This document shows positions 1,895-29,509 of a stretch of 33,497 nt of DNA, piece after piece. Numbering within the stretch: the first letter of the stretch is position 1; each line of letters begins with the position of its first letter. This DNA comes from Granulosicoccus sp. (GTDB lineage Bacteria; Pseudomonadota; Gammaproteobacteria; Granulosicoccales; Granulosicoccaceae): the NCBI GenBank assembly GCA_023300375.1, contig JALZWO010000138.1:1-33497 (forward strand). Reading direction: 5' to 3'. The notes under the pieces are model-generated. The model ran no database searches. It was not told the DNA's origin and worked only from the letters and a program-made list of their open reading frames with translations. The position numbers and the translations under genes are program-made.

Positions 1895-3211
1895 TTAGTC
1901 ACCACCTGAGGTATCGGCAGCCGGCGGCTTCTTCGGGCTAGCAGCCGCACGACGCGGCTTCGGCTTCTCTGCTGCATCGGCTTTTGGCTTAGGTGATTCC
2001 ACTTTTTCAGCTTTGGTCTTGGCCGCTACTTTGGACGCTGTTTTCTTAGCTACCTTTTTCCGCACAGCTCTGGGCTTGGCTTCAGCAGGTGAACTCTCAC
2101 TACTCGCTGACGATGGCGCAGCCTCACCCGCTTCAGGGCGTTTACGAGGCGCACGTGGTTTTCTTGCCGCTGGCTCTTTTACGCGATCAGGAGATGTGGA
2201 ATTGGCCGCTGGAGCTGATGTGGATACCGGCGCAGAATTCGACGCAGGCGCAGATGACGAAGTTGAATTCACAGCTGGAGCCGTGGATTGCTGTACCGAC
2301 CTATCTGGCGCTCGTGACGACTGATCAACAGACGCTGGACCTTGCTGCGTTACGGCAGCTTGTGACGGGGCTTGGTTCGCGTTTGAGTGAGTACCTGCGT
2401 TGTTATTAGGATTTTCTGAATCAGTCCGGTTTTGATTTCTGTTACGGTTATTTCTGTTGTTCCGGTTCTGGCCACGATTCTGATTGCGGTTGTTTCTGTT
2501 TTGCCTATTACCCTCGCCCTGCCCTTGATTACGCCGCTGGTTAGGGTTTTGGGCGTTAGCTTGCGCACCACCTTGCTGTCGGTTGTTTCGCTGTTGCTGG
2601 TTGTTAGCGTTGCGACCCTGACGCGGTTGAGCATTGTTTGATCTGGATCGACCCTGAGCATTGCCGTTGCGATCGTTTCTCTGGTTTGATCTGCCTCGAC
2701 CACGGGGGTTATTACTATTTGCCCCCATCACCAGACTACCCACTTGGTAGGGATCTTCCATGCCAATCAGGTTACTGTCGGAAGGGAAGCGGTTATTGAC
2801 GTTACAACGATCGCGATTGCCAAAATTGTCGTCTTCGTTCTCGACAAAAGCAGGCTGCTCGGGTAAGGCGCGATTACCGATGTTGTCCATTGCCTCGGTA
2901 ATTTCACGAGGTGGACGCAACGCTCGGTTGCCTTTTTCTATGCGGTTGCCAACGTTGTCATCATCACGGCCGCGCCCACGGTTGTTGCGAGCGCCCTTGC
3001 GTTTGTTGTTATTACGGTTGCGATTGTTCGCTCCGCCTCCCGCAGCACCTTGCCCGGCCGGTCTTTGGCTGTTGTTGGGGTTACCTCGACCTCGACCGCG
3101 TCTGGGGGCTGGACGTGACCCGCCTTCGCTGTTGCTGTCATTGCGGCTACCGCCTGCTTCGGCCGAACCGCTGGAACTAGCCCCAGAATCTTGAGTATCA
3201 CTGCTTGTCAT
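1895..3211 (-). CDS. Disordered Asn/Arg-rich protein with DNxGNR repeats and H1-like tail
   Basis: I do not recognise a family. The 438-residue product has no signal peptide, membrane helix, Trp or obvious folded domain, and one Cys (C136). Residues 1-80 are Ser/Gly-rich, then RGRGRG and Asn/Arg-rich. Residues 81-155 are less repetitive and contain DNVGNR (85-90), DNIGNR (109-114) and DNFGNR (128-133). About 170-262 is an Asn/Arg/Gln low-complexity tract, about 265-345 is Ser/Ala/Pro-rich, and the end (about 348-438) is a Lys/Ala/Pro tail like bacterial histone-H1-like proteins. Such composition suggests nucleic-acid binding or condensate formation, which is inference. The reading is firmly on the minus strand, because the motif copies differ by synonymous codons. 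The start has no Shine-Dalgarno of its own; a mini-ORF overlaps it. Confidence 0.75.
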   Translation of the reverse strand: MTSSDTQDSGASSSGSAEAGGSRNDSNSEGGSRPAPRRGRGRGNPNNSQRPAGQGAAGGGANNRNRNNNKRKGARNNRGRGRDDDNVGNRIEKGNRALRPPREITEAMDNIGNRALPEQPAFVENEDDNFGNRDRCNVNNRFPSDSNLIGMEDPYQVGSLVMGANSNNPRGRGRSNQRNDRNGNAQGRSRSNNAQPRQGRNANNQQQRNNRQQGGAQANAQNPNQRRNQGQGEGNRQNRNNRNQNRGQNRNNRNNRNRNQNRTDSENPNNNAGTHSNANQAPSQAAVTQQGPASVDQSSRAPDRSVQQSTAPAVNSTSSSAPASNSAPVSTSAPAANSTSPDRVKEPAARKPRAPRKRPEAGEAAPSSASSESSPAEAKPRAVRKKVAKKTASKVAAKTKAEKVESPKPKADAAEKPKPRRAAASPKKPPAADTSGGD

Positions 3212-3663: not shown

Positions 3664-5160
3664 TTGAAAACTGAATCTCTAAACGGCTGGCAGCACGAAT
3701 GGCTCGGAAACATACGCGCCGATATTCTAGCAGGCCTCGTTGTGGCGCTGGCGCTCATTCCAGAAGCCATAGCGTTCTCGATTATTGCTGGCGTTGACCC
3801 CAAAGTCGGGCTGTATGCCTCGTTCTCTATTGCCGTCATAGTCGCTATCACTGGCGGCCGACCTGGCATGATATCAGCGGCTACCGCCGCTACAGCGGTC
3901 CTCATGGTTACTCTGGTTAAAGAGCACGGCCTTCAGTACCTACTGGCAGCCACAATACTTGCGGGGCTTATTCAAATTTTAGCTGGCTTGTTTAAACTCG
4001 GCTACGTAATGCGTTTTGTATCGCGTTCAGTCATGACAGGCTTCGTTAATGCGCTGGCCATCCTGATATTCATGGCGCAACTGCCTGAGCTTGTCAATAT
4101 TCCTAACCCGTCATTAACATACATTATGGTGGCGGCAGGCCTAGGCATCATCTATCTGCTTCCCAGAGTGACCAAGGCGGTGCCTTCGCCGCTGATCTGC
4201 ATCATCGTGCTCACAGTGATTTCGCTTCTGCTCGGGCTCGATGTACGTACGGTTGGCGATATGGGCGAGTTACCCGATTCACTCCCGATCTTTCTACTAC
4301 CAGACATTCCCCTTAATTTTGAAACGCTGAAGATTATCCTGCCCTACTCAATTGCCGTGGCAGCGGTGGGCTTGCTTGAATCTCTCATGACCGCCTCCAT
4401 CGTCGATGAACTCACCGATACCAAAAGCGACAAGAATCGCGAATGCATCGGGCAAGGTATTGCCAATACTGCAACGGGTTTTATCGGCGGCATGGCAGGA
4501 TGCGCCATGATCGGCCAGTCAATTATCAATGTAAAGTCAGGTGGACGAGGCCGGCTTTCTACATTCTGTGCTGGTATCTTTTTATTGATAATGATCGTTT
4601 TTCTGGGTGACTGGGTTAAGCAAATCCCCATGCCTGCCTTGGTTGCCATCATGATCATGGTATCCATTGGTACCTTCAGCTGGTCGTCTTTAGTGAACTT
4701 ACGCGACCATCCGCGTAGCTCCTCTGTGGTCATGCTGGCTACCGTTATTGTGGTCGTGGCTACTCACAACTTAGCCATCGGTGTTGCGGTAGGTGTGTTG
4801 TTCTCTGGTATTTTCTTCGCCTGGAAGATCTCCCAAATTTTCAGGGTGACCTCCACTCTTTCAGCCGACGAACTCAGCCGCACCTACAAGGTAGAGGGTC
4901 AATTGTTCTTCGCTTCCAGTGACGAATTCACAGCGGCATTTGATTTTAAAGAGGCATTGGAAACCATCATTATCGATGTTAACGATGCGCATATCTGGGA
5001 CATATCTAGCGTGCAGGCCTTGGATATGGTAGTACTGAAGTTCAGACGAGAAGGAAGCACCGTGGAGATTATCGGACTGAACAAGGCGAGCGAGACCATT
5101 GTTGACCAACTCGCCGTTCACGATAAGCCTGGTGCCCTCGACGATATGATCGGCCACTGA
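3664..5160 (+). CDS. SulP family anion transporter with STAS domain
   Basis: The 498-residue protein matches the SulP (SLC26-like) family. The N-terminus contains the characteristic [22 protein letters not shown] segment followed by [13 protein letters not shown]. Many transmembrane helices fill residues 20-390, including the conserved-looking stretch [18 protein letters not shown]. Residues 400-498 form a cytoplasmic STAS domain with [19 protein letters not shown]. It should move an inorganic or small organic anion such as sulfate, bicarbonate or a dicarboxylate; sequence alone does not decide which. The start is TTG: the frame is closed by a TGA at 3628-3630 and no ATG precedes the first helix. 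No clear ribosome site is visible. A universal stress protein gene follows after 19 bp. Confidence 0.92.
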
Positions 5161-22161: not shown

Positions 22162-24117
22162 TTACAGCGGCGGCAAACTTTGGTAAGCCTCTTTGCGTTT
22201 GTCTTTGCCACGTGGCATACGCTCCTGCTCGATAGCCTTCATAGCTATCACCAGATTATCAGATAATTTATTGAGCCGCTCTTGCAATACGGGCTCAGCC
22301 ATCGAGCCACCATTTTTACTGTAGAGCGCCAATTGTAAGGCAGCTAAGGTATCACGCGCATCACCCTCAGGCAGCTTGGCACAAAGGCCATCGATCGTTG
22401 TGGGAGGAGATGTCGTCCACTGTTCGCCAGCCCATTGCATAAGAGCGATTTTTAATGTTAGTAAGTCGCCTTGCTTAGCCGTTTTCCGAACCCCTTGCAA
22501 AGGCATCAAACGATTCTGAACAGCACTGTATGCCGTGCTCTTAGAGGCCTGCCTGCTAGCACTTGAGCGCTTGAAAATCCAATAAAGCACCGCCAGCAGT
22601 ACAGCAAATAATGTGATCAACGCCAGCGCCCGCCAGCGTTGAACAGAGTCTTCCAGAGCTGTGATACGTGGCCCCTGGCTTTGCAGTTGAGCCTGCTCTT
22701 GTATCGCTAGTGACTGTTGCAGATCTGCACTTGCAGTATCTGACAATGGGTTTGTTGAGGAATCGTTTAGTGCAGAGTTAACTCCCTGCTGCTGATCACT
22801 TGAGGCATTGTTCGTTGTAAGATTTGCAGAGTTGTTGCTCGATGCTGACGCTGGTGCAACGATAATGGTTTCTGCGGGCAGCTGTGCAGTCTCGTTTTGG
22901 CCTGTTCGCGTGTTAAACCACTCAACGCTAACCGCAGGTAGTGTAAGGGGGCCGCTACGTTGAGGAATTAGCGCCCAATTGATGCGTTGTTCAGCGATCA
23001 GTCCACTATCGTCGCCGTCCATTGTTAAGCGAGGGTCTTCAGCATACAAACTAACTCCATCGATAGCAGGTATGTTGATTTCAGGAAGTTGCGATTGCAA
23101 CACGCCTTGCGCCTGCATAACCAGAGTACGCGTTAGGGGTTGGTCAACTTGTGCGCTGGCAGGATCACTCTGCCACTGAGCTTGAATCTCCAGAGCCTTT
23201 GCCGGCAACCACCACGCGGCATTTGTGGAAGGTCGAGGCAGCACGTTCAATTCAATTGCATCACTACGTCGTGTCAGTTTTCGTGTGGGCGAGAAAAAGC
23301 CACGAACACGCGATGGATCTGCAGGCACCGTGATGTTCAAAATCACAGGCTCAATGGTTATGGGGCCACTTTTTTGCGGAAACAACGCAAAACGACGTTC
23401 AGTAACTCGGTATTCACGTCCATCACGCTCCTCTAAACTTTGTGTATCCTCACCAATACGTTGGACAGTCATGTTGTCAGCTGATGGGGAATCCAGACCG
23501 CCATCAACGATGTCAATTGCCTGAAATACTCTTAACGACATGACAACTTGCGACTGCACCCATGGTTCAGCGGTATCGACACTGGCCTCAAGAAAAATAT
23601 CCCTACTGGCGCCGGTTGGTATATCACTAACGTTCAGTGTCAGTAGTTGAGTCTCATAGTCCCCCACCTGCACCGATGGAACAGTGAACACGCCTTGGCC
23701 CTTGGGTAACAACTCCAACACCCATCTGACAACACTCACGTTTATCAATTGATTGTTATTGCTAAACGTTGTGCTTATCTCTCTGGAGCTAGAGCGGCTA
23801 ACCACATCAAAATTTTCACTCAACGATGAAGAATCAAGTTCAGCATCGATGCCTTGAGCGGTGATCGTTAACATGACTGATTCATCGCGCGTGATTTGCT
23901 GTGCACTCAATTCAGCTCGCACTGACACCTCTTGCGAATGAGCATGAGGCATACCGACAATCAGAAGGCAGGCAATCCACACGCTGGGCCAGAAGGCTGG
24001 CCAGTCAGCCGAGAATATAGTTTGCAAAAACTGCGAGCGCGATTGTGGCCTAAGCCGTAGCACTATAGACATCAAGAAACGCTCAGCAAAAAAGCTTCTA
24101 CCAGGGGTTAACAGCAT
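22162..24117 (-). CDS. batD: BatD-like aerotolerance protein
   Basis: The 651-residue protein has an N-terminal hydrophobic segment (VWIACLLIVGMPHAHS) followed by SQEVSVRAELSAQQITRDESVML, typical of BatD. Repeated beta-sandwich modules follow (for example FALFPQKSGPITIEP and WALIPQRSGPLTLPAVS), then an Asn/Ser/Gln-rich linker, a transmembrane helix near residues 495-515 and a basic cytoplasmic tail of about 136 residues. It is presumed to be an inner-membrane protein with a large periplasmic part acting with BatA/BatB. The ATG at 24117 is well supported by GAGGTGA immediately upstream, although it overlaps batC by 20 bases. Confidence 0.88.
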   Translation of the reverse strand: MLLTPGRSFFAERFLMSIVLRLRPQSRSQFLQTIFSADWPAFWPSVWIACLLIVGMPHAHSQEVSVRAELSAQQITRDESVMLTITAQGIDAELDSSSLSENFDVVSRSSSREISTTFSNNNQLINVSVVRWVLELLPKGQGVFTVPSVQVGDYETQLLTLNVSDIPTGASRDIFLEASVDTAEPWVQSQVVMSLRVFQAIDIVDGGLDSPSADNMTVQRIGEDTQSLEERDGREYRVTERRFALFPQKSGPITIEPVILNITVPADPSRVRGFFSPTRKLTRRSDAIELNVLPRPSTNAAWWLPAKALEIQAQWQSDPASAQVDQPLTRTLVMQAQGVLQSQLPEINIPAIDGVSLYAEDPRLTMDGDDSGLIAEQRINWALIPQRSGPLTLPAVSVEWFNTRTGQNETAQLPAETIIVAPASASSNNSANLTTNNASSDQQQGVNSALNDSSTNPLSDTASADLQQSLAIQEQAQLQSQGPRITALEDSVQRWRALALITLFAVLLAVLYWIFKRSSASRQASKSTAYSAVQNRLMPLQGVRKTAKQGDLLTLKIALMQWAGEQWTTSPPTTIDGLCAKLPEGDARDTLAALQLALYSKNGGSMAEPVLQERLNKLSDNLVIAMKAIEQERMPRGKDKRKEAYQSLPPL

Positions 24118-25003
24118 CAGTCACCTCGGGAAATTCTGTTAGATGGCTTTGTTCCAACTTGCGACGCAGCAAACCGGCAGGGTCATCAGGGATTCTTCGT
24201 AGCCATTGTTCAATGGCCTGATCAGACTCGCTCATGGTTTCAATAGGTCGTTCGACAGGCTCACCTGTTGCGCCATCATCTGGTTCTGGCTGCCCATCAG
24301 GCGGGGGCTGGTCAGCGTTTAAAGCATCGCGCGCCGCTTGCGCGTCGCGCTCTTGCTGATCCTCAGAGGCAGCTTGTTCGGCATCGGAAGGCTCACTGTT
24401 TTCTGATCCTTCGTTTGCTTCATCGCTCTGCCCTTCTTCACTTTGCCCATCTTCTGATTGTTCATCAGATGGCTGCTGATCTGAGGGTTGTTGCTCTTCC
24501 GAATCAGAGGACTGCTCATCACCTTCTTCACCAGACTCTTGTTCTTGTTGCTCTTGTTGTTGCTGCTCTATAAGTTGACGCACGATTTCGCTGTTATGCG
24601 CCGCATCTTGAAATTCTGGCTCGCTTTGCAATACTTGTTCGAAATTATCCAACGCACTTTCAAAATCACCCGCTCTGACATCGCTCACACCCTGATTGTA
24701 CAAAGCACGGTTGGCAGCCTGAATATCACCCTCTAGCAGGCTTTGCGTGGCTAACTCACTGAATTCTTCAGCAGCGGCCTGGAACTCGCCGTTCTTATGT
24801 TTGGCAATGGCTTGCCAGTTGGCATCGGGCGCAACGTTTTGCAGTTGTTCTATATTGCCAGCTTCAAGCGCATCACTGGCCTGTTGCTCAGGTGTACGCC
24901 ACCAGTCCGCTTGGACAATACTTGGCATGAGCCCAAACATCAGAATAGAGAAAGCTATCGCTTTACATTTATAATCCCGAGGAATAGTGTTTAGACCGTT
25001 CAT
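24098..25003 (-). CDS. batC: BatC/BatE-type TPR protein with acidic linker
   Basis: The roughly 301-residue protein has a signal segment (AIAFSILMFGLMPSIVQA) followed by DWWRTPEQQASDALEAG, the usual opening of Bat TPR proteins. TPR-like helices follow, including ALYNQGVSDVRAGDFESALDNF and LQSEPEFQDAAHNSEIV. Then comes a roughly 100-residue Glu/Gln/Ser/Asp-rich disordered tract, and a conserved end with QWLRRIPDDPAGLLRRKL. In other proteobacteria this part is often fused to the BatB vWA domain; here it is separate. The start at ATG 25003 overlaps the batB stop by four bases. The function as a periplasmic adaptor in the Bat complex is inferred. Confidence 0.85.
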   Translation of the reverse strand: MNGLNTIPRDYKCKAIAFSILMFGLMPSIVQADWWRTPEQQASDALEAGNIEQLQNVAPDANWQAIAKHKNGEFQAAAEEFSELATQSLLEGDIQAANRALYNQGVSDVRAGDFESALDNFEQVLQSEPEFQDAAHNSEIVRQLIEQQQQEQQEQESGEEGDEQSSDSEEQQPSDQQPSDEQSEDGQSEEGQSDEANEGSENSEPSDAEQAASEDQQERDAQAARDALNADQPPPDGQPEPDDGATGEPVERPIETMSESDQAIEQWLRRIPDDPAGLLRRKLEQSHLTEFPEVTDAVNPW

Positions 25004-25995
25004 ACCAACACGCCTCTTCTGAAAAGTGTCAATGCACCTAGCAGTAAGGGCCACACAAGCCAAGGCGAATACTCAACCCAATAGGTTTGACGCATGGGCG
25101 CTTGCGCGTCGCCCTCTTCAATAGCAATAGACGAACGCACCTGAGCCAACTGCTGAAGATCTTCACCATCGGTGGTTAGCCTCACCGCCGTACCCCCACC
25201 AATGGCTGCCAGCTCACTCATGGCTGACATACTGATCGAGGGCACCACAATGCCGCCATTGGCATCTCTTATAAACTGACCACCTGCATCTCTTAATGGT
25301 CGACCAGATGCAGTACCAACAGCTAGCACAGACAAGCGATGCCCAGCATCACGTGTACGTTGAGCAGCTTTAAAATCTCGCTCACTCAGCATCTGATCTC
25401 CCATATAAAGGATATGCCCTTGCCTTACTCCTGTTTGCGCAAGCAGCTCAAGCGCACGCTCAATTGCTAGATCGAGCCTACTGCCTTGAACCGGCATGAT
25501 ATCAGTGGATAGCGACGGCAAGAAGGCTTCGATAGTGCTGGTATCTTCAGTTAAAGGACTGACCACATAGGGGCGTTCGGCAAAAGCAATGAGACCAATC
25601 TGTTGCCCATCACTGCCTGCCAGCAAATCGGTCAATTTGAAACGCGCTCTTGCTAACCTGCTAGGCGCTATATCGTCTACCTGCATTGAAGAGGACAGAT
25701 CAAACAGTACAACTTCAGCCTGATTCGCCTGAAAGACTGGCACTTCCTGTTTCTCCCACACCGGCCCAGCAAGCAGCAGCAGACTCAACACCCAAGCTGA
25801 AAACAGCATCCACGGGCCTATTCGCCTCTTAGCATTCGACCCTTCCAGCACGTACTGTTGAAGCTCAGGATCTACCACACGCTCCCAAGCACTACCGATA
25901 GCCGACCGCCGATACCAGAACGTGATGGCTAGCGCTAAAGGCAAGAAACCCCATAACCATAAGGGGCGTAGCCAAACCAGATCTGCATCGCTCAT
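25000..25995 (-). CDS. batB: BatB-like vWA-domain membrane protein
   Basis: The 331-residue protein has hydrophobic segments at the N-terminus (around residues 10-26 and 60-80) and C-terminus, flanking a von Willebrand A domain. The metal site starts with DLSSSMQVDDI (DxSxS present). The later metal-site Thr is not evident: the loop reads VQGSRLDLAIERA. A late acidic residue is present in MGDQMLSERD. This pattern is common in BatB relatives. It is presumably anchored in the inner membrane and works with BatA. It overlaps batA and batC by four bases each, implying strict co-expression. Confidence 0.9.
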   Translation of the reverse strand: MSDADLVWLRPLWLWGFLPLALAITFWYRRSAIGSAWERVVDPELQQYVLEGSNAKRRIGPWMLFSAWVLSLLLLAGPVWEKQEVPVFQANQAEVVLFDLSSSMQVDDIAPSRLARARFKLTDLLAGSDGQQIGLIAFAERPYVVSPLTEDTSTIEAFLPSLSTDIMPVQGSRLDLAIERALELLAQTGVRQGHILYMGDQMLSERDFKAAQRTRDAGHRLSVLAVGTASGRPLRDAGGQFIRDANGGIVVPSISMSAMSELAAIGGGTAVRLTTDGEDLQQLAQVRSSIAIEEGDAQAPMRQTYWVEYSPWLVWPLLLGALTLFRRGVLV

Positions 25996-27029
25996 GCCGG
26001 GTGATTCTCAACTGGGCGCTTAGGTTGCGCTGAACTTACAAGCGCCATGCCCGACAATGCCCATAAAAAACTGCACAACAACGCGATGCTCAATGGCCAT
26101 GCGAAAAGCTCATTAAGTGGACGAAATTGTTGTTCATCCTGCTCAGTTGGCTCTAATTCATCAATTGTTGCATAAATGCTAGCTAGCTCCTGAGAACTCC
26201 GAGCTCGAAAATATTGGCCTCCTGTGGCATCACTGATGGCCTGCAATGTGGCTTCATCAAGTTCGCTTCGTCTTGTCCCCATGGCTCGGCCAAAAACATT
26301 AGCTCCCTGATCAGAACCAACGCCTATTGTATGTATGCGGATATCACTGCTAGCGGCAACTTGTGCCGCCTCCAGCGGATCAACAACACCTGCTGAATTA
26401 GCACCATCTGTAAGCAAAATCAACACTCGAGATGCATCAGGGCGTTCACGTAGGCGTTTAACCCCAAGACCAATGGCATCTCCGATGGCGGTAGATCGAC
26501 CGGCAAGCCCAATAGTGGCCTCAGATAAAAAATGTTGTACGGTCTCATGATCGTAGGTCAATGGAGTTTGCACATACGCTTGTGAACCAAACATGATCAA
26601 ACCAATGCGATCTCCCCCCCTGCGGTCAACAAAATCTTGTGCAAGTTGTTTTACCACCGCCATGCGAGTGGCTGGACGGTTCCCAGAGTACAAATCAGTT
26701 TCACGCATGCTGCCAGAGATATCAATGCCAAGCAGCAAGTCACGACCCGTAACAGGTACGCTTAGAGATTCTGAAAAATTTTGTGGCCGTGCAACACTTG
26801 CGACCAAAGCAACCCATGCAACCGTTAACAATACAATGCGTAGCCAGTACTTCGCCGATGCCACTTGATGTTCACCTGCGTAGGCTTTGTAAAAATCTGC
26901 GTCAGGAATACGCAAGGCACGCGAACGAACAATAGGAGCTGCGGGCGCAAAAAAGTAGACAAACACTGGCAGTGGCAACACCAAAAATGCCCAAGGAAAC
27001 ACCCAACTGATGGTTTCAAAAACACTCAT
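25992..27029 (-). CDS. batA: BatA-like vWA-domain membrane protein
   Basis: The 345-residue protein has N-terminal membrane helices, the conserved ARPQNF segment before the domain, and a complete metal-ion-dependent adhesion site: GIDISGSMRETDL, the Thr of GRSTAIGDAIG and LLTDGANSAG. A C-terminal helix ends the protein. BatA proteins partner MoxR ATPases and have been linked to aerotolerance and envelope stress in other bacteria. Four-base overlaps with the DUF4381 gene and with batB place it centrally in the operon. Confidence 0.93.
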   Translation of the reverse strand: MSVFETISWVFPWAFLVLPLPVFVYFFAPAAPIVRSRALRIPDADFYKAYAGEHQVASAKYWLRIVLLTVAWVALVASVARPQNFSESLSVPVTGRDLLLGIDISGSMRETDLYSGNRPATRMAVVKQLAQDFVDRRGGDRIGLIMFGSQAYVQTPLTYDHETVQHFLSEATIGLAGRSTAIGDAIGLGVKRLRERPDASRVLILLTDGANSAGVVDPLEAAQVAASSDIRIHTIGVGSDQGANVFGRAMGTRRSELDEATLQAISDATGGQYFRARSSQELASIYATIDELEPTEQDEQQFRPLNELFAWPLSIALLCSFLWALSGMALVSSAQPKRPVENHPA

Positions 27030-27541
27030 GCGACGTGTTCAGCATGTGGGCGTCCGTGCGACTGTGTTTTTGCTGCTGCCGAGATTAATTCATCGACGTG
27101 ATCCATCAAGGTATGCAAATCTTCATCTCTCACATCAGGATTTTTTTGATAAGGACCATTTTCAAGCAATTTACCAAAACTATTTTTAAAGACTTCCCTA
27201 CCGCATATATCATCAAGCTCGCGCAACCAGTCTTCGCCGTGAAGGCTGGCGATACTTTGCCGCGACCTCGCCACCAGCGCCACTCTACGCACTAGTTTTG
27301 ACAGTGCTGACAATGACTGACTAACGGGTACATCACCCACCTGAGCTCTCAGAACCCCCAGCTCGCTACGCGCTTGTCGTTGCCAGCCGTAACGTTGAAA
27401 ACGACGGTAGGCAAAAAATGCAAACACACCTAACAAGACAATACCAACGCCAAGCAGCCACCACCCAGGTGCCGGCAAGGCGCTTACCGGTGGCAATTGC
27501 AAGTCACGCAGCTGCGAGAGTAAGTCTTCGGTGTCGTTCAC
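27026..27541 (-). CDS. DUF4381 membrane protein
   Basis: The 171-residue protein has one transmembrane helix (PAPGWWLLGVGIVLLGVFAFF, about residues 24-44) preceded by QLRDLQLPPVSALP, a DUF4381 hallmark, and a basic helical cytoplasmic domain with RVALVARSRQSIASLHGEDWLREL. DUF4381 genes occur between DUF58 and BatA genes in proteobacterial MoxR operons, as here, and the role is unknown. The start overlaps the DUF58 stop by four bases. Confidence 0.88.
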   Translation of the reverse strand: MNDTEDLLSQLRDLQLPPVSALPAPGWWLLGVGIVLLGVFAFFAYRRFQRYGWQRQARSELGVLRAQVGDVPVSQSLSALSKLVRRVALVARSRQSIASLHGEDWLRELDDICGREVFKNSFGKLLENGPYQKNPDVRDEDLHTLMDHVDELISAAAKTQSHGRPHAEHVA

Positions 27542-28503
27542 AAGCTTGGCTCAACGCTTGAATCACTTTTGCGTTGGAGAATGTTCGCAGCGCTATCCAA
27601 TAGAGGCATGTGAGTGGATACACTCATGTAATGATGTCTTTGCGACACAAAAAGTGACTTTAAAATTTCTTGCCTACCAATGAACTGAGATGCGTAGCGT
27701 GTCTGCTCATTGCGCGAACTGACGTTTAGAGTCCATGTAGAGTGTTCGCCCTGAGTGCCAGCACTCACCGGGTACGAACCCGGTTCAGGTAGATGGCGAT
27801 CGAGCGGATCGGTAATGTGCACAGCAATCAGATCAGCGGCACGTAAGGAGCTTCCCAACATTTGCTGAACTGTTTCATCAAAGCCCACGAAATCACTGAG
27901 TAGCACAACGGTGCTGCCTGCGTGCACACTGTGACGTAAACGGCGCATCGTTTTGACGAACTGATCGCCACTTGACACAGGCATGCGCCTCTGGCCTTGT
28001 TCAATAGCACGCAACAATCCCATCAAACCGCGTCGGCCCGATTGTGGGCGAATCTCACTGTGCCAATCGTCGGTAAATACGAATCCACCTACGCGGTCGT
28101 TAGCCGCTACCGCACACCAACCCAGTAGCGCAGCCAGACGTGTCGCCAACGCTGATTTGAACATTCCCTGTGTTCCAAAACGCATGTTGGCACGAAAATC
28201 CACCAACAGTAGAACGGGACGTTCACGCTCTTCAACGAAAAGTTTGGTATGAGCGGTGCCTGTGCGTGCAGTCACTTTCCAGTCGATCTGCCTTATGTCG
28301 TCACCGGCCTGATACTCGCGTACTTCAGCAAAATCCAAGCCTCGGCCTAGTCGTCGCGATACCGACCCACCACTTTGAGGCGCTGCGCTGCGACGTCTCA
28401 CCTGTCGTTGAAGCGCCGAAGCTGCTCCACGCAGATTGACAAGTTCCTCCAAGGACGTGCTTGCAGGTGAGGAAAATGACTGCTTTAGCGTGTTAGCCAA
28501 CAT
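27538..28503 (-). CDS. DUF58 domain protein
   Basis: The 321-residue protein carries the DUF58 signature GRGLDFAEVREYQAGDDIRQ followed by IDWKVTARTG, then a vWA-like fold beginning PVLLLVDFRANM with VVLLSDFVGFD later. DUF58 proteins are encoded beside MoxR ATPases and are thought to be their substrates or partners. There is no membrane segment, so the protein is likely cytoplasmic. moxR ends 13 bp upstream. Confidence 0.92.
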   Translation of the reverse strand: MLANTLKQSFSSPASTSLEELVNLRGAASALQRQVRRRSAAPQSGGSVSRRLGRGLDFAEVREYQAGDDIRQIDWKVTARTGTAHTKLFVEERERPVLLLVDFRANMRFGTQGMFKSALATRLAALLGWCAVAANDRVGGFVFTDDWHSEIRPQSGRRGLMGLLRAIEQGQRRMPVSSGDQFVKTMRRLRHSVHAGSTVVLLSDFVGFDETVQQMLGSSLRAADLIAVHITDPLDRHLPEPGSYPVSAGTQGEHSTWTLNVSSRNEQTRYASQFIGRQEILKSLFVSQRHHYMSVSTHMPLLDSAANILQRKSDSSVEPSL

Positions 28504-28516
28504 GTGTGGAATCGGT

Positions 28517-29509
28517 TCACGGAACAGCTATCTGACCAAGCAGACGATCAAGAACATCACTGGCAGTAACGCCGTCAGCCTCCGCCTCGAAAGATAATAT
28601 TAGACGATGACGAAGCACATCGTGGAACACAGCCTGTACATCCCCAGGAGAGACGTAGTCGCGCCCATCAAGCCAGGCGTGCGCACGCGCACAGGCATCG
28701 AGGCACAAGGTACCGCGAGGGCTAGCACCATATTCTATCCATCGACCTAGTTGCTCATCAAATTGTGCAGGTTGGCGACTCGCAGCGATTAGTCGCACAA
28801 CATAATCTTCGATGTCATCTGCCATGAAGACTTGCAGTACTTCACGCCGTGCAGCAAACAAAGCGCTAAGTGGAAACGAAGGCTTGGCTTGCGCAGGTTT
28901 TTCGAGCGTGCTGCCTATGGCCGCCTCGCTAGACTTCAATGCTTCAGATCTCACCAGCCTTAATATTTTCGCTTCGTGTTCGGGCGCTGGATAGTCAATC
29001 ACAACCTGCATGTGAAAACGGTCGAGCTGCGCTTCAGGCAAAGGATATGTACCTTCCTGCTCGATCGGATTTTGAGTAGCCATGACCATGAAAGGCGCTG
29101 GTAGTGGATAGGTGTGATGCCCCACTGAAATTTGCTGTTCCGCCATGGCTTCAAGCAAAGCTGACTGAACCTTAGCAGGTGCTCGATTGACTTCATCAGC
29201 AAGGATAAGATTATTAAACAACGGGCCTTGCTGGAAGACGAACGTACCATCAGCTGGCCGATAAATCTCCGTACCTGTCAGATCCGCGGGCAATAGATCA
29301 GGCGTAAATTGTACTCGCTGGAAGTTGGATTCAATGCAGTCGGCCAGCGCCTTGATGGCACGAGTTTTGGCCAGTCCAGGTGCACCCTCCACCAACAGGT
29401 GACCATCGACCAGTAACGCGATAAGTAGTCGATTGACGAGCCGTGGCTGGCCAATTATGGCCGCCTCTACTTGTGAACCGAGTTGTTGGACAGCTGTGAG
29501 TGCACTCAA
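28517..29509 (-). CDS. MoxR-family AAA+ ATPase
   Basis: The 330-residue ATPase has Walker A (EGAPGLAKTRAI), Walker B (LILADEVNRAP), the sensor/loop segment ATQNPIEQEGTYPLPEAQ with LDRFHM, and a C-terminal lid with ASPRGTLCLDACARA. MoxR proteins act as chaperone-like ATPases that mature or remodel vWA-domain proteins, here most likely BatA, BatB and DUF58. The start is TTG at 29509, with AAGG close upstream (and AGGG further up); no ATG occurs before the conserved GQ motif at residues 20-21. It is the first gene of the long minus-strand run. Confidence 0.94.
   Translation of the reverse strand: MSALTAVQQLGSQVEAAIIGQPRLVNRLLIALLVDGHLLVEGAPGLAKTRAIKALADCIESNFQRVQFTPDLLPADLTGTEIYRPADGTFVFQQGPLFNNLILADEVNRAPAKVQSALLEAMAEQQISVGHHTYPLPAPFMVMATQNPIEQEGTYPLPEAQLDRFHMQVVIDYPAPEHEAKILRLVRSEALKSSEAAIGSTLEKPAQAKPSFPLSALFAARREVLQVFMADDIEDYVVRLIAASRQPAQFDEQLGRWIEYGASPRGTLCLDACARAHAWLDGRDYVSPGDVQAVFHDVLRHRLILSFEAEADGVTASDVLDRLLGQIAVP

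Follow-up and report, generated by a model that had tools for sequence, protein, structure and literature searches.

The question raised by this locus is what kind of protein is encoded by a low-complexity open reading frame (ORF) at positions 1895-3211 on the reverse strand of a contig from the marine bacterium Granulosicoccus sp., and which part of its 438-aa product matters to the organism. The contig was analysed over a window of 33,497 nucleotides, which is the whole stretch of DNA considered here. An original prediction, made from the letters of the DNA, had described the product as a disordered protein with three DNxGNR motifs and an H1-like Lys/Ala/Pro tail, and had suggested a condensate-forming linear-motif scaffold for RNA or DNA. 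The segments of the protein and the conserved neighbouring gene are listed in Table 1.

Table 1. Segments of the 438-aa protein and its conserved neighbour, with positions in the window.
Feature	Position	Strand	Evidence
Whole ORF, 438 aa, predicted disordered scaffold-like protein	1895..3211	-	Full core in 10 other Granulosicoccus genomes; pN/pS <1 in every segment
N-terminal arm, residues 1-82, G/R/N/S-rich, basic	2966..3211	-	Charges +16/-5; pN/pS 0.513
Conserved acidic core, residues 83-163	2723..2965	-	57/81 columns invariant in 11 orthologs, 53 of them with varying codons; pN/pS 0.109; charges +9/-16
GNR half of core, residues 83-134: DNVGNR, KGNRAL, DNIGNRALPE, DNFGNRD	2810..2965	-	PcnB tails of four other genomes carry a similar module
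NVNNRFPSDSNLIGMEDPYQVGSLV half of core, residues 137-161	2729..2803	-	24/25 columns invariant in 11 orthologs
Strongly basic middle arm (residues 164-262), rich in N/R/Q; putative RNA-binding region	2426..2722	-	Composition +22/-2, which suggests RNA binding; pN/pS 0.455
Spacer, residues 263-340, S/A/N/P-rich, fastest evolving	2192..2425	-	pN/pS 0.794; mean pairwise identity 21%
C-terminal arm (residues 341-438), rich in A/K/P, conserved KPRAPRK box	1898..2191	-	K351-K357 invariant in 9 sequences of alignment A1; pN/pS 0.508
Gene for a SulP-type transporter, a divergent neighbour that is conserved together with the 438-aa gene (context only)	3664..5160	+	PF00916; same neighbour in 9/9 flanks L025-L033 (frames read) and in L190, where a helicase gene lies in between

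The distribution of the gene was determined by a search with the whole protein, which gave matches in 9 of 39 genomes, its own included (L010, another and weak match in G019 at E 4.5e-4, is interrupted by five stops and was left out), and with A2, a profile of the standalone core that was run on 27 genomes of the genus. The full core was found by A2 in 11 of the 27, again counting the genome of the window, together with three weaker matches: a divergent ortholog, a low-complexity protein of 343 aa, in G003 and in G018, and the tail of poly(A) polymerase I (PcnB) in G009. The two divergent orthologs retain NINNRFPSDSNL, lack the GNRALPE block, and carry the Lys/Ala/Pro part in an N-terminal position. 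The pattern RFPSDSNL occurs once each in 13 of the 27 genomes, and its backwards control in none. The search for orthologs proposed in the original prediction has therefore yielded 10 other Granulosicoccus genomes with the full form and two with a divergent one. Outside the genus nothing convincing was found in 369 genomes of the class searched with two profiles, in viral contigs, or in plasmids: A2 gave three matches in the class genomes, all from Granulosicoccus, profile A6 gave the same three and a weak one (E 0.0137), which lies in a stop-containing frame of 31 aa, and viral contigs and plasmids gave no core. A scan of public genome contigs returned nine loci, whose records all bear the name Granulosicoccus. 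Within the order, the standalone profile covered one (G171) of 21 genomes of other genera, as far as the search listings show. The ORF is a real protein-coding gene, which is conserved and, over the range searched, restricted to the genus.

The three hexamers are DNVGNR (from residue 85), DNIGNR (from residue 109), and DNFGNR (from residue 128); they differ in their codons, as had been predicted. Among 200,000 shuffles of the whole protein none contained three copies, one contained two, and 1,028 contained a single copy; when residues 81-165 were shuffled 200,000 times, more than one copy was never obtained. A fourth GNR, absent from the original prediction, lies within the core at residue 94 (KGNRAL), and a fifth outside it at residue 234.

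Selection was assessed on a codon alignment of 11 orthologs, from which mean pairwise pN and pS were calculated for each segment. All segments have a pS of 0.71-0.79, and pN is 0.084 in the core versus 0.36-0.58 elsewhere, which gives a pN/pS of 0.109 for the core against 0.455-0.794 in the other four segments (Table 1). Because codons vary in most of the invariant core columns, selection acts on the amino acids and not on the DNA, the RNA, or the ORF that overlaps the gene on the + strand (2760-3194). A DNA repeat and an antisense-ORF constraint were rejected: synonymous sites in the core have diverged as much as elsewhere, and the overlapping ORF is thus not the conserved object. The view that an amino-acid motif rather than a repeat is conserved was borne out, and the 81-residue core is under strong protein-level selection.

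The expectation that DNxGNR would be more conserved than its flanks was correct for the arms, over which the motif stands far above, but not for the rest of the core, since 13 of 18 DNxGNR columns are invariant in the 11 orthologs and so are 44 of the other 63 core columns. The four GNR triplets of the core are invariant throughout (12/12 columns), and the longest invariant run covers residues 137-154 (NVNNRFPSDSNLIGMEDP), followed by residues 156-161. The conserved unit is a bipartite core of about 80 residues, rather than three hexamers. That the motif might be common to many proteins was considered and rejected. The pattern D[ND]xGN[RS] gave nine matches in the own genome versus seven for the backwards control, three of the nine in the 438-aa gene and six in unrelated or short frames. 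As a DNA pattern, NxGNR..P gave 22 matches in 27 genomes versus 14 for its backwards form; 11 were in the standalone gene, four in PcnB tails, and seven elsewhere, in frames of 25-222 aa that lack an R/N-rich context as judged by eye.

Structure prediction with AlphaFold2 (9 sequences) gave a mean pLDDT of 44.4 and a pTM of 0.15 for the whole protein, and the 81-residue core by itself gave no fold (pLDDT 54.5, pTM 0.11). In a charge-hydropathy plot every segment fell on the disordered side of the boundary, so that the predicted disorder was upheld by both methods. The net charge of the core is acidic, and the arms on both sides of it are basic. Neither Pfam nor NCBIfam contains a family that matches the protein at E up to 0.1, PDB chains gave no match to the core profile, and a search of the literature library for the letters of the motif found no match in print; nothing was found that pairs Granulosicoccus with ‘intrinsically disordered’. 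The statement that no named family has this layout thus holds for these collections. The protein family thus appears to be undescribed, and disordered RNA-decay scaffolds as a kind are already known.

A resemblance to part of the core was found in PcnB, which is present in 26 of the 27 genomes of the genus (25 above cut-off). In G002, G009, G021, and G040 the PcnB C-terminal tail is long and R/N-rich and carries D[DN]xGN[RQ], DNxGNRA.P, and N.NRD in that order; the PcnB encoded with the window (503 aa) has a short tail without this GNR module. Comparison of the standalone GNR half with the PcnB module using hhalign gave a probability of 92% (E 5.8e-7, calculated for one comparison); when broader alignments were used, the probability was 77%. 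The A2 HMM scored 15.6, 17.7, 7.7, and 9.0 bits on the four tails, values reached by 0, 0, 3, and 0 of 1,000 full shuffles and by none of 1,000 window shuffles each. In the reverse direction, A4, the profile and HMM of the PcnB module, scored 8.4-16.4 bits on 10 of the 11 standalone proteins, values attained by no more than one in 400 shuffles of each kind; the exception is the protein of G006, whose 1.2 bits were attained by 31 and 15 of 400. Ordered blocks of the module above the level of composition are therefore found in 10 of the 11 standalone proteins and not in G006, and the two divergent orthologs are without the middle block. RNase E tails scored at most 0.2 bits with A2 (a score for 13 of 14) and at most 2.4 bits with A4 (14 of 14). 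When run on 48 genomes of the order, A4 retrieved four PcnB tails, four standalone cores, and two chance matches in unrelated frames; the cores were four of the 11 at E up to 0.05 (0.005-0.039), with that of the window missed, and A2 recovered only one of the four PcnB tails in its genome search. The NNRFPSDSNL half, which is the most conserved in the standalone proteins, is absent from the PcnB tails. Taken on the sequence comparisons, there is good evidence that the GNR half of the core resembles the PcnB tail module beyond composition; the match is short and compositionally biased, and convergence is a possible source of the resemblance.

The occurrence of the two forms was mapped on a midpoint-rooted tree of 25 PcnB domains, a single protein. 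Standalone genes occupy 13 of the 14 rows of one clade (99/96), the exception being G007, which is 68% complete. The PcnB-tail modules occupy all four rows of another clade (100/100), which has no standalone gene, and the two forms never co-occur. These searches found neither form in 10 of the 27 genomes (G007, seven further tree rows, and G010 and G020 outside the tree), four of which are 63-76% complete. It was also observed that PcnB of G017 and G005 (L048:2734-3138(+) and L053:563-985(-)) has a long G/N-rich tail without the module and is placed by the same tree as sister to the module-bearing clade.

The gene neighbourhood was read from the flanks of the orthologs. SulP lies beside the gene in all ten flanks in which the upstream side was read far enough (the nine of L025-L033 and G018). 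On the downstream side, ETF-QO faces the gene directly in seven of the nine flanks L025-L033, as read from frames; in L025 the two are separated by two further ORFs, of which the first is EamA-like, like its counterpart in the window, and in L028 by several kb. In the window the gene is followed by an EamA transporter gene and a glutathione-transferase-like gene, and the genome's own ETF-QO is on another contig. In 12 genomes that lack the gene, the surroundings of ETF-QO were inspected and showed no ORF of a comparable kind (the contig ends near in G002, G011, and G020). The order in G018 is SulP, an RhlE-type DEAD-box helicase, the gene, and ETF-QO, the helicase and the gene being codirectional with frames 24 bases apart, a putative operon. 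The same pair, likewise a putative operon, occurs in G003, followed by one further ORF and then ETF-QO; the stretch read there stops short of SulP. Both helicases score best with the RhlE model, although under its curated cut-off (608.2 and 595.4 versus 743).

Several further observations were made in these regions. In six of nine flanks a conserved element, GTGAGACCTGAGAG.GAT..ACCTTTGCC, was noticed by eye in the interval that separates the gene from the divergent SulP, at L029:5590-5630 and at the corresponding position in L027, L030, L031, L032, and L033. It was not seen in the 260 bases upstream of the gene in the window. Rfam searches of the window and four loci (L027, L029, L030, and L033) gave no family at gathering score, and the element in L029 has only a chance-level match. 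Beyond ETF-QO, L033:8824-10245(-) is a beta-CASP/RMMBL ribonuclease-like gene whose best score is against a type VII CRISPR Cas14 model, well under the cut-off (392.8 versus 800). On contig C86 of the own genome (L036:1-1542(+)) the C-terminal domain of a larger protein recurs as a similar 102-aa frame at 2299-2607(+), in the manner of a polymorphic cassette. Within the window, the run of ORFs at 24098-29509(-) is one that we take to resemble a MoxR ATPase, DUF58, von Willebrand-type (Bat-like) operon.

RNase E was examined as the enzyme whose tail the protein might represent. A long frame was found in 14 of 15 genomes searched (not in G013), that of the own genome being 1,225 aa. Of the 14 RNase E tails that were read in Granulosicoccus, two being cut by contig ends, none contains the GNR module or FPSDSNL, and seven contain a lone GNR triplet; the 438-aa protein is therefore not a displaced RNase E tail. 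Near the C-terminus of nine of the 14 tails (L175-L187), a VS.RQPS.LK..V.SLA box was noticed by eye, a candidate microdomain of the genus; two of the other five tails are the ones cut by contig ends.

The original prediction had itself raised the case of an enzyme tail broken off through misassembly. An origin as a detached or misassembled tail, whether from RNase E, from PcnB, or from some other enzyme, would account for a composition like that of RNase E tails and for a GNR module that is also found on PcnB tails. It is nevertheless extremely improbable. The separate ORF recurs in 12 other genomes, 10 full and two divergent, with conserved neighbours in the flanks read, which rules out an assembly artefact, and both RNase E and PcnB are separate genes in the own genome, which together with the 14 module-free tails read rules out a detached RNase E tail. 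An ancient gene fission from PcnB is a possible origin of the standalone gene. A nucleoid-associated or histone-H1-like protein, in which the Lys/Ala/Pro arm would bind DNA and the core would be a regulatory dock, is more plausible than that but still quite unlikely. The A/K/P-rich C-terminal arm with its invariant KPRAPRK box and the predicted disorder are in its favour, and the Lys/Ala/Pro-rich tail of the original prediction is indeed there; its likeness to H1, however, is one of amino-acid composition only, and no linker-histone or H1-like family is matched in Pfam or NCBIfam (a search with PF00538 found nothing in the own genome, but nothing in any control genome either, and so carries no weight). 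Moreover, the N-terminal Lys/Ala/Pro part of the G003 and G018 proteins means that its position is not fixed, K/A/P-rich stretches are seen by eye in the RNase E tails of the same genomes as well, and the PcnB resemblance and the RhlE gene point to RNA enzymes.

Among the alternatives, a scaffold without a role in RNA, tied for example to SulP or ETF-QO, deserves the most weight, although we regard it as unlikely. Under this explanation the PcnB likeness would be a convergence of acidic N/D/G/R-rich tracts; SulP and ETF-QO are indeed the usual neighbours, and the RhlE gene is directly upstream in only two of the 12 flanks read (G003 and G018, the others being L025-L033 and the window). Against it, both usual neighbours are encoded on the strand opposite to the gene, ETF-QO occurs in 25 of the 27 genomes irrespective of the gene, and for most rows the PcnB match scores above what shuffles of the same composition reach.

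The best explanation, which we put forward tentatively and with slightly less than even confidence, is a genus-restricted intrinsically disordered RNA-decay scaffold. The linear-motif scaffold of the original prediction fits the predicted disorder, the orthologs, and the conservation of the motif at the amino-acid level. RNA rather than DNA is favoured by context as the putative ligand, because of the PcnB tail resemblance and the RhlE neighbour in two genomes. Judging from composition, the R/N/Q-rich basic arms would bind RNA without sequence specificity, and the acidic core may serve as a short-linear-motif dock for a 3'-end processing or decay enzyme, which could be the enzyme that the PcnB tail binds or, in trans, PcnB itself. 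The protein would then bring RNA and enzyme together, perhaps within a condensate, in the manner of the RNase E C-terminal region. A more specific and rather doubtful version is that a docking module for RNA 3'-end metabolism occurs in two architectures within one genus, as a PcnB tail and as an enzyme-free disordered scaffold acting in trans, which in two genomes is encoded behind an RhlE helicase.

If the two-architecture version were true, a degradosome-like hub would be built around polyadenylation instead of RNase E, bacterial RNA-decay scaffolds would not need to be RNase E tails, and docking modules could be exchanged, inside a single genus, between the tail of an enzyme and a free-standing scaffold. 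In bacterial annotation, disordered proteins that have no enzyme domain are readily overlooked; here evolution itself singles out the approximately 80 residues that matter, and the alternation with the PcnB tail points to a partner pathway that can be tested.

Among known systems, the PcnB C-terminal tail of one Granulosicoccus clade is long and R/N/G-rich and has the three blocks in the same order as the core. Unlike the standalone protein, that tail is part of an enzyme, lacks NNRFPSDSNLIGM, and has an IYD.IQP segment of its own. The available part of PMC9764084 refers to regions of PAP I that bind RNase E, RhlB, or Hfq. RNase E tails of gamma-Proteobacteria are described, in the portion available of PMC4435900, as disordered, with an RNQ-rich part followed by an AEPV-rich part and with embedded microdomains, and for RNase E of P. 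aeruginosa the accessible text of PMC11964227 reports that the arginine-rich motifs AR1, AR4, and REER bind RNA and that an NDPR motif binds PNPase. With the RNase E C-terminal scaffold, as these partial texts present it, the 438-aa protein shares predicted disorder, R/N/Q-rich and A/P-rich parts, short conserved motifs or microdomains within fast-evolving sequence, and lineage-restricted gain of motifs. It differs in that no nuclease is attached (it is a standalone ORF in 13 genomes, without fusion to an RNase E/G catalytic domain), in being A/K/P-rich where those tails are A/E/P/V-rich, and in its core, which none of the 14 RNase E tails read in Granulosicoccus contains. The NDPR motif is likewise a short N/D/R-containing linear motif in a disordered scaffold; its sequence is different, and the parallel is one of analogy only. 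The BR-body condensates of RNase E, as outlined in the part of PMC10412687 available, offer a model of action for a disordered RNA-decay scaffold, with which a possible condensation of the 438-aa protein may be compared.
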